Assembly (NCBI GenBank): GCA_025354985.1
Contig: JANXLU010000068.1
Coordinates: 62,001 to 126,000 of the forward strand
Reading direction: 5' to 3'
DNA length: 64,000 nt
Source of the DNA: Chloroflexota bacterium
GTDB lineage: Bacteria > Chloroflexota > Anaerolineae > J036 > Brachytrichaceae
Shown here: positions 22,017-44,392 of the stretch, in pieces
Layout of the letters: each line of letters opens with the position of its first letter
Position numbering within the stretch: position 1 is the stretch's first letter
Program-made: the position numbers and the translations under genes
Notes under the pieces: model-generated
What the model was told of the DNA's origin: nothing
The model's input: the letters and a program-made list of their open reading frames with translations, nothing else
Databases searched by the model: none

Positions 22017-22727
22017 ATGAACAGACTAATTGTCCGATCTTGGATGGTCCATCTCTACACAGCATTGGGCCTGTTTTGCGCCCTATACGCCATGATCGGC
22101 GTGCTTGATGGCAATGCACAAATGACGTTTGGATGGCTGGGCGTCGCCCTCATCATAGACAGCACTGACGGCATGTTGGCCAGAAAATTCAAAGTTTGGG
22201 AAGCCGTGCCTCGATTCGATGGACGGAAACTGGACGATATAACCGACTATATCAATTACGCGCTTATCCCCATTTTTGCTTGTTACCGCTTTGGTCTGGT
22301 CGGCTGGCCCTATGTCCCACTGTTGGGTTTCGTGCTGCTTGCCGCCGCATATGGCTTTTGCATGGATCATGCCAAAACAGACGACGGCTTCTTTACCGGG
22401 TTTCCAAACTATTGGAATGTGCTCGTACTCTATCTTTTCTTCTTTCAGGCGCCACAATGGCTCAATGTATTGATATTGCTTTTCTTTGCCATCACGGTCT
22501 TTGTGCCGGTCAAATATCTGTATCCATCCAAGACGCCGGTACTAAAGCCGCTCAATATCGCAATTAGCAGTCTATGGATTCTTGCAGCGCTATATATGGT
22601 CGTCAACATCTCAAAGATAAGCCCAATCATTTTGTGGGTTTCTCTTATTGGTCCGGTCTACTACGTCGGGCTGTCACTTGTATTGCATGCCATAGGCTAT
22701 CACCGTGATAACTCGGTTACGATCTAA
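22017..22727 (+). CDS. pcs: Phosphatidylcholine synthase (CDP-alcohol phosphatidyltransferase)
   Basis: Integral membrane enzyme of 236 residues in the CDP-alcohol phosphatidyltransferase family. The catalytic pattern Dx2DGx2ARx(8)Gx3Dx3D is seen as DSTDGMLAR, then DGRKLDDITDY. The rest follows bacterial phosphatidylcholine synthase: an early SWMVHLYTALG, later AKTDDGFFTGFPNYWNVLVLY, then KTPVLKPLNIA. The enzyme joins CDP-diacylglycerol and choline to make phosphatidylcholine. It begins 18 bp after sbcC. It is notable beside the PmtA-PSD fusion at 43064, which would supply the other route. A different CDP-alcohol substrate cannot be excluded from sequence alone. Confidence 0.82.
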   Translation: MNRLIVRSWMVHLYTALGLFCALYAMIGVLDGNAQMTFGWLGVALIIDSTDGMLARKFKVWEAVPRFDGRKLDDITDYINYALIPIFACYRFGLVGWPYVPLLGFVLLAAAYGFCMDHAKTDDGFFTGFPNYWNVLVLYLFFFQAPQWLNVLILLFFAITVFVPVKYLYPSKTPVLKPLNIAISSLWILAALYMVVNISKISPIILWVSLIGPVYYVGLSLVLHAIGYHRDNSVTI

Positions 22728-23631: not shown

Positions 23632-23725
23632 GAGGGTGGAAACGTCCCGGTGGGCGTCCTGGTCTTCAAAACCAGTGGCAGGCTGCATGGCAGGCTGCGG
23701 TGAGTTCGACACTCATGCGCCCTCG
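23632..23725 (+). tRNA. selC: tRNA-Sec (anticodon UCA)
   Basis: Selenocysteine tRNA. The anticodon stem CTGGT/ACCAG encloses the loop CTTCAAA with anticodon TCA (23666-23668). The D-stem has six pairs (ACGTCC with GGGCGT) around a four-base loop, a hallmark of tRNA-Sec. The variable arm is long and can pair as GCAG/CTGC and CTGC/GCAG around an ATG loop with one G-G mismatch. The T-stem is GTGAG/CTCAT. The acceptor stem has seven good pairs plus a G-G at the eighth. CCA is not encoded. The S51 peptidase start codon follows after two or three bases. It implies that the genome encodes selenoproteins; no selA, selB or selD is in the window. Confidence 0.9.
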
Positions 23726-43050: not shown

Positions 43051-43056
43051 TAAAAT
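43051..43056 (+). promoter_or_regulatory. -10 element of PmtA-PSD gene (leaderless)
   Basis: TAAAAT ends 7 nt before the ATG at 43064. A nearer ATG at 43055 lies inside the hexamer, so 43064 is the more likely start. Confidence 0.55.
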
Positions 43057-43063
43057 GAATTGC

Positions 43064-44392
43064 ATGTCTGCTTTGGATGAGGTTTCGTTTTTTGCCAGCC
43101 AGTTGGTCGCCGGTGCCACGGACGTTGGTGCTGTCCTTCCCACCTCGAAATTTGCAGCCCGCGCCATGGTGGCAGAAATCGCACGTACAACGGGTCCGCG
43201 TCGAATTCTTGAAGTTGGCTGTGGCACCGGTCCCATCACTGCCGAGCTTGTAAAAATCCTTGGGCCTGACGACCGCTTAATTTTGTGCGACATCAACGCA
43301 CCATTCATCGATTACATCCGACGCAGATTCGAAAAGGAAGCAGAATTCGTCGCCGTCCGTGATCAAGTGGAACTCTACGATTGCAGTGTGACAGACCTGC
43401 CCGAAGAGCCAGCCTATGATTTTATTGTCAGTGCGTTGCCATTTACCAGGCTGGGCGAGACGCTCACCCGCGAGATACTGGCAAAGTACGAGCGCATGCT
43501 AACACCCGACGGTGTGCTTACCTACATTGAATATGCGTATTTGCGATCGGTAAAGGACGCCGTAACCGGATCGTCGAATTCTGCCTCGATCGTCGTCGAT
43601 GAATTGCTTCGCAAACATGAATTCCGCCGCGATACAGTGTGGCGAAACGCTCCGCCTGCGTGGGTGCACCATCTGCGTTTTCTTCCTGCCAGGCTCGCCT
43701 TTGCCAGGCGGATTTTGCCGATGGCCCACAATCAGCGCTTTACGCTGGGGCAGATGACCTTTGATGGTGATGCCGCCAGGTTCATGCTGGGTAGCGCCCT
43801 ACTTGCATGGATCTTGGCCCGTTTCTCCCGACGGATGCCGTGGCCGCTGGCATTGGCCGCTGGCGTTGCCGGCGCATGGTTTTTGCGTGACCCCGATCGG
43901 TCCGCGGCAGCCACCGACGCAACCGAAGATTCGATATACAGCGCGTGTGACGGTCGGGTGATTGCAATTGAACGTGTTCATGATGCGCGCTTTGGCGAAG
44001 GCGATTGGCTTCGCATCGCCGCATTCCTGGACGTAACGGATGTCCATATGAACCGCTCGCCCGTAGCCGGCAAGGTCATAAACGTAATCCGTGAACCTGG
44101 TGGCCATGCGGTTGCGAGTGGTTCGAACGCGGAGTCCAATGAGTCCACCTACACTGTCGTTGAATCTGTTTCAGGTCACACCGTCGTAGTGGCACAACGG
44201 GTTGGCGCCATAGCCCGTAGAATCGTAAACCGCGCTCGCCCAGGCAGCCTGATCGCTCGTGGCGAAAAGTTTGGCCTAATTCGATTCGGTTCACGAACCG
44301 ACGTCTATCTTCCGTTTGAACACACGGCATGCCTGATACAAGTTGGCGACGTCATCGTGGGTGGCGAGACCAAAATAGCGTCATTCAGCTAA
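43064..44392 (+). CDS. Fused phospholipid N-methyltransferase and phosphatidylserine decarboxylase
   Basis: A 442-residue two-domain enzyme. Residues 1-215 are a PmtA-type SAM methyltransferase: GAVLPTSKFAARAM, then the SAM site ILEVGCGTGPIT and VSALPFTRLG. Residues about 225-442 are a short-form phosphatidylserine decarboxylase: two hydrophobic helices, FLRDPDRS, CDGRVIAIERV, FLDVTDVHMNRSPVAGKV, and the self-cleavage site IRFGSRTDVYLP. Ser410 should become the pyruvoyl group. One chain would thus decarboxylate phosphatidylserine to ethanolamine lipid and methylate it toward phosphatidylcholine. Cleavage at Gly409-Ser410 would leave the methyltransferase attached to the beta chain. No pssA is adjacent. 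The upstream open frame to 42791 is antisense to the TPR gene and rejected. Confidence 0.85.
   Translation: MSALDEVSFFASQLVAGATDVGAVLPTSKFAARAMVAEIARTTGPRRILEVGCGTGPITAELVKILGPDDRLILCDINAPFIDYIRRRFEKEAEFVAVRDQVELYDCSVTDLPEEPAYDFIVSALPFTRLGETLTREILAKYERMLTPDGVLTYIEYAYLRSVKDAVTGSSNSASIVVDELLRKHEFRRDTVWRNAPPAWVHHLRFLPARLAFARRILPMAHNQRFTLGQMTFDGDAARFMLGSALLAWILARFSRRMPWPLALAAGVAGAWFLRDPDRSAAATDATEDSIYSACDGRVIAIERVHDARFGEGDWLRIAAFLDVTDVHMNRSPVAGKVINVIREPGGHAVASGSNAESNESTYTVVESVSGHTVVVAQRVGAIARRIVNRARPGSLIARGEKFGLIRFGSRTDVYLPFEHTACLIQVGDVIVGGETKIASFS

Follow-up and report, generated by a model that had tools for sequence, protein, structure and literature searches.

Phosphatidylserine decarboxylase (PSD) and phospholipid N-methyltransferase (Pmt) are textbook enzymes, and the locus considered here raises the question of what a single polypeptide carrying both domains would do, and how such a polypeptide arose. 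The window, i.e., the whole analyzed stretch of 64,000 nucleotides, corresponds to positions 62001-126000 of contig C45 in a Chloroflexota (Anaerolineae) genome of 4.2 Mb and 98 contigs (G000). At 43064-44392 of its plus strand, a single stop-free frame encodes 442 aa and has full-length homologues; Pfam finds both domains in it, in agreement with the first-pass annotation, which had described one polypeptide with a methyltransferase and a PSD domain. An in-frame ATG at 43055, three codons upstream, is a possible alternative start. A minus-strand TPR-type frame is the divergent neighbor of the gene, and an acetyltransferase-like frame begins 19 bases after it. Elsewhere in the window, ARAGORN and Rfam concur on a selenocysteine tRNA gene (23632-23725, plus strand).

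Domains and key residues of the two halves

The N-terminal half (residues 1-209; 43064-43690, +) was recognized by Pfam and by profile and structure matches to Agrobacterium tumefaciens PmtA (AtPmtA; 9KO3). The Pfam family Methyltransf_25, of the class I SAM methyltransferases, covers residues 48-150 (1.4e-12) and exceeds its curated cut-off. In NCBIfam, the METHYLTRANSFERASE (methyltransferase) half scores 64.1 bits with OlsG (NF041658; cut-off 350) and 39.6 bits with PmtA (NF045881; cut-off 250), both falling far short; by sequence, it is a distant PmtA homologue and is not classed as a member. A profile built from seven fusions gave AtPmtA as the top match among 177,635 PDB sequences (E 2.4e-10). 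The AlphaFold2 model (mean pLDDT 83.9, pTM 0.80) superposes on 9KO3 with Z 17.9 and rmsd 2.6 over 156/164 residues, other methyltransferases tying at the top.

The SAM-binding motif E50-V-G-C-G-T-G56 (43211-43231, +) follows the E/DxGxGxG pattern and aligns with E58-LGPGTG64 of AtPmtA, and its Glu and Gly positions are invariant in the family alignment (A3). The SAM contact Glu84 of AtPmtA aligns with Asp76, and the Asp106 region is out of clear register. The C-terminal NxPPA motif N195-APPA199 (43646-43660, +) matches N185-IPPA of PmtA. Residues I155-E156-Y157 (43526-43534, +) occupy the head-group groove positions, as aligned with Ile159 and Tyr161 of AtPmtA through the annotated Agrobacterium and a Rhizobium Pmt. 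In AtPmtA, the groove tyrosine is required for activity, and methylation all the way to phosphatidylcholine (PC) is favored by Ile over Phe in the groove (PMC12139422); the enzyme of the window could, purely by analogy, go past mono-methylation. The groove tyrosine is replaced by Leu in one branch of the family (L072, L073).

The link between both halves consists of a pair of hydrophobic helices (235-254 and 260-273; 43766-43882, +), which are modeled as helices by AlphaFold2 and coincide with a hydropathy segment at 237-255; they are presumed to act as a membrane anchor.

The C-terminal half (residues 271-437; 43874-44374, +) matches PS_Dcarbxylase (PF02666) at 1.2e-29, with 103.9 bits against a gathering score of 22. 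Among the NCBIfam PSD equivalogs (PRK05305 series), the best score is 158.8 bits, under the cut-off of 225. The search of the full-length model against the PDB returned mainly methyltransferases, and the PSD half was therefore folded (36 sequences; pLDDT 89.2) and searched alone. It matched E. coli PSD in 7CNZ (Z 12.6, rmsd 3.7, 156 aligned) and 7CNY (Z 11.3, rmsd 2.1, 131 aligned); EIIA-Glc chains reached Z scores of up to 13.9, above those of PSD, and the identification of this half hence comes from its sequence and not from the fold alone. His328 (44045-44047, +), conserved in 34/37 sequences, corresponds in a HMMER alignment with 7CNW to E. coli His144, which is essential for decarboxylation (PMC9385802). 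Asp296 (43949-43951, +) is invariant in the 37 sequences. A second His of the E. coli enzyme, His147, is needed for maturation; a simple alignment (DVHMNRSP vs DYHRVHMP) places R331 at that position, and Arg is found there in 37/37 sequences, including the annotated Paracoccus PSD. This substitution, here and in the Paracoccus enzyme, indicates a short-form PSD and not one of the E. coli type.

The self-cleavage site F408-G409-S410 (44285-44293, +) keeps its Ser in 37/37 and its Gly in 36/37 sequences, and Ser410 would become the pyruvoyl group. Cleavage at this site would yield an alpha chain of 33 aa and 3.6 kDa (residues 410-442; 44291-44389, +) and a predicted beta chain of 45.0 kDa (residues 1-409) bearing the methyltransferase. 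Two further proposals of the first-pass annotation, that the key motifs of both halves are intact and that cleavage between Gly409 and Ser410 would keep the methyltransferase on the beta chain, are thus borne out by the sequence, with the FGS exactly at 408-410.

Pathway context and proposed function

The surroundings of the fusion point to phospholipid synthesis. At ten loci outside the genus of the window (L020-L023, L032, L069-L073), which cover most of the lineages there, a PssA-like (PS synthase) gene is adjacent and convergent to the fusion; the genomes concerned are those of Viridilinea, CPR1, BWSM_10, G206 and five relatives of the CPR1/BWSM_10 group (G450, G454, G456, G457 and G460). 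In the window's own genome, PssA-like genes are located at two contig ends. These sequences (L065 1-518 and L066 1-662; contigs C1 and C93) are near-identical, not identical; either a recent duplication or strain variation within the assembly could account for them.

A phosphatidylcholine synthase (Pcs) homologue of 236 aa is encoded 20 kb upstream of the fusion (22017-22727, +; NCBIfam PhCholSynPs 1.1e-45, under the curated cut-off). Homologues of Pcs occur in 9 of the 11 intact-fusion genomes tested, both Viridilinea counted, and in 29 of 400 sampled Chloroflexota; within this sample, they are found in 3/3 genomes with the core fusion vs 5/49 other PSD genomes (p 0.0025, on few independent lineages). 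To judge by these genes, the fusion hosts would make PC and, like rhizobia, have two routes to it. On the grounds of homology, gene context and this co-occurrence, the methyltransferase half very probably methylates phosphatidylethanolamine (PE) toward PC.

We consider it quite probable that the protein is a membrane-bound bifunctional enzyme that converts phosphatidylserine (PS) into PE and then into methylated PE or PC, and whose beta chain keeps the methyltransferase. The precursor would be held at the membrane by the helices joining its halves, and its C-terminal half would cut itself between Gly409 and Ser410, leaving the pyruvoyl group on the 33-residue alpha chain, whilst the 45 kDa beta chain would retain the methyltransferase. 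PssA would supply phosphatidylserine, the decarboxylase would turn it into PE, and the attached S-type-like phospholipid N-methyltransferase would use SAM to take PE to mono- and dimethyl-PE, and probably to PC. What we infer for this protein comprises its two activities, how far methylation proceeds, its anchoring in the membrane and a hand-over of PE between the two sites. The covalent link, together with the fact that the fusion is the sole PF02666 match in G000, with no other decarboxylase gene detected there, suggests that PE may be channeled. A stronger version, which we put forward as possible but on the doubtful side, is that with a sole decarboxylase every PE molecule would be made beside its own methyltransferase, committing the membrane to methylated lipids, and that the methyltransferase of a sister lineage would be a pseudoenzyme kept in the beta chain.

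Several observations count against the bifunctional reading. Both halves score far under the NCBIfam equivalog cut-offs, OlsG being the best-scoring methyltransferase family, and the groove tyrosine is replaced in L072 and L073. In addition, both Viridilinea carry a second, stand-alone decarboxylase; and a genome of the same family (G005) has a stand-alone methyltransferase homologue (L004 1486-2181; 37%) and a Pcs homologue, with no decarboxylase detected.

The methyltransferase half might alternatively act on another membrane lipid (e.g., ornithine lipid, like OlsG), the fusion providing only a shared anchor. The higher NCBIfam score of OlsG over PmtA speaks for this idea, and the same order is obtained in the relatives tested. 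It is nonetheless unlikely and not favored, since AtPmtA heads the PDB matches obtained with the family profile, although OlsG itself has no PDB entry known to us, and the PssA neighborhood and the co-occurrence of Pcs point to PE/PC lipids. An OlsB-type acyltransferase (PF13444) also has no match in G000, G002, G206 or Viridilinea, and is strong only in G001 among the fusion genomes, a search that covers the OlsB-type route alone.

Distribution, origin and partial decay of the fusion

The full-length fusion is present in two other genomes of the same genus (G001 and G002; 56 and 54% identity), in another Chloroflexota family, and, at 40-48% identity, in Candidatus Viridilinea halotolerans, Ca. 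V. mediisalina, bacterium CPR1 and bacterium BWSM_10. The last two are unclassified bacteria (CPR1 as unclassified Bacteria in NCBI), and the contig scan that found the Viridilinea, CPR1 and BWSM_10 fusions used two peptide patterns only. Relatives of CPR1 and BWSM_10 have intact fusions in G450, G454, G456, G457 and G460, and contig-cut copies in G452 and G458. Among 400 evenly sampled Chloroflexota, those with the core fusion are G000, G206 and Viridilinea, a rare and patchy occurrence in this phylum. Overall, the layout is conserved in many bacteria that are only distantly related to one another. Among the plasmid records searched, none contains most of the fusion protein.

In the tree of PSD halves, every fused row except that of G246 falls into one clade with support of 100/100, which indicates one old fusion; the one row labeled “single” inside this clade (L078) starts at a contig end. 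The subclades of the methyltransferase tree agree with those of the PSD tree, with poor deep resolution and few outgroups, and by itself this tree is no proof of a single origin, its outgroups being too few. The exception in G246 (L061 3664-5199) is also a methyltransferase-PSD fusion, which sits on a long branch elsewhere in the PSD tree and shows KLGSQ instead of FGSRT at the cleavage site; its separate placement and altered motif are best read as a second, independent fusion, the long-branch placement being unsure. The neighbors of this gene are a PssA-like gene and genes of ATP synthase. In G184, G351 and G410, the methyltransferase and decarboxylase are encoded by unfused genes that adjoin each other and a PssA-like gene.

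Nested within the fusion clade of the PSD tree, four genes keep the PSD half and its Ser, their N-terminal half being devoid of the GxGxG and SxxPF motifs (L074 19-1464, L075 1474-2883, L076 1480-2865 and L077 851-2083, in G451, G455, G461 and G453, respectively). Either the methylation step was lost there and the scaffold retained, or this half acquired a new role; this nested lineage with its decayed methyltransferase shows that methylation is dispensable in some hosts. The decay of the methyltransferase beside a conserved decarboxylase also lends some weight to the idea that the N-terminal half chiefly has a structural or regulatory role (membrane-binding or SAM-sensing), the protein being in effect a decarboxylase only. 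We regard this as improbable, given that the window gene and all 13 aligned intact fusions retain the SAM and NxPP motifs, and that a Pcs homologue is found in neither of the two decayed-methyltransferase genomes tested, which fits a loss of PC synthesis there.

The probability that sequencing or assembly joined two adjacent genes is practically nil: unfused neighboring pairs do exist in other Chloroflexota, but the same uninterrupted junction occurs in seven separately assembled genomes, including Viridilinea from cultured enrichments, with more among the CPR1/BWSM_10 relatives, and this recurring two-domain frame rules out a gene-joining frameshift. Both outcomes that the first-pass annotation had named as refuting it, a sequencing-induced frame and a lack of the domain pair in relatives, are contradicted: the same junction recurs in these genomes, and in others the unfused versions adjoin each other together with a PS synthase gene.

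Significance and comparison with known systems

The open-access literature on PSD/phospholipid N-methyltransferase fusions yielded no description of this layout, as the first-pass annotation had supposed, prior mention elsewhere being possible; lipid data for fusion-bearing organisms were likewise not found, including in the Viridilinea genome paper. Both domains are of known kinds; the novelty lies in their pairing, in how old this pairing is and in the decay that followed. The fusion would put the PE/PC branch point within one polypeptide, and gives a concrete test case for the hand-over of substrate between consecutive lipid enzymes at the membrane. Filamentous phototrophs such as Viridilinea, and likewise uncultured Anaerolineae, are predicted to contain methylated PE or PC. 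The family also offers a natural series for study, comprising unfused neighbors, a first fusion, a second one of independent origin and the secondary decay of one half.

Regarding the methyltransferase half, AtPmtA shares with it the SAM motif, the Ile and Tyr of the groove, the NxPPA motif and the fold; unlike the window protein, to which it is 22% identical, it is a stand-alone enzyme of 197 aa whose N terminus provides an amphipathic helix of its own (PMC12139422). OlsG is related in sequence, but it is a stand-alone ornithine-lipid N-methyltransferase. As for the other half, short-form PSDs (PRK05305/PF02666) have in common with it the FGS site, Asp296, the DVHxNRxP motif and N-terminal hydrophobic helices, with 30-57% identity to the aligned homologues; they are normally unfused proteins of 200-250 aa, whereas the window beta chain has about 225 extra residues. 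The closest parallel in gene order is a run on plasmid 1 of Paracoccus denitrificans PD1222 (L100 1357-3410), in which psd, pssA and a Pmt-like gene adjoin, thus bringing together the same three pathway steps; these are nevertheless three separate genes, and the methyltransferase resembles another Pmt type (NF045882, 157 bits, below cut-off). Finally, the LicCA fusion of Treponema denticola also combines two consecutive steps toward PC in one chain (PMC8590670); in contrast to the fusion described here, it belongs to the CDP-choline pathway and is made of unrelated domains.
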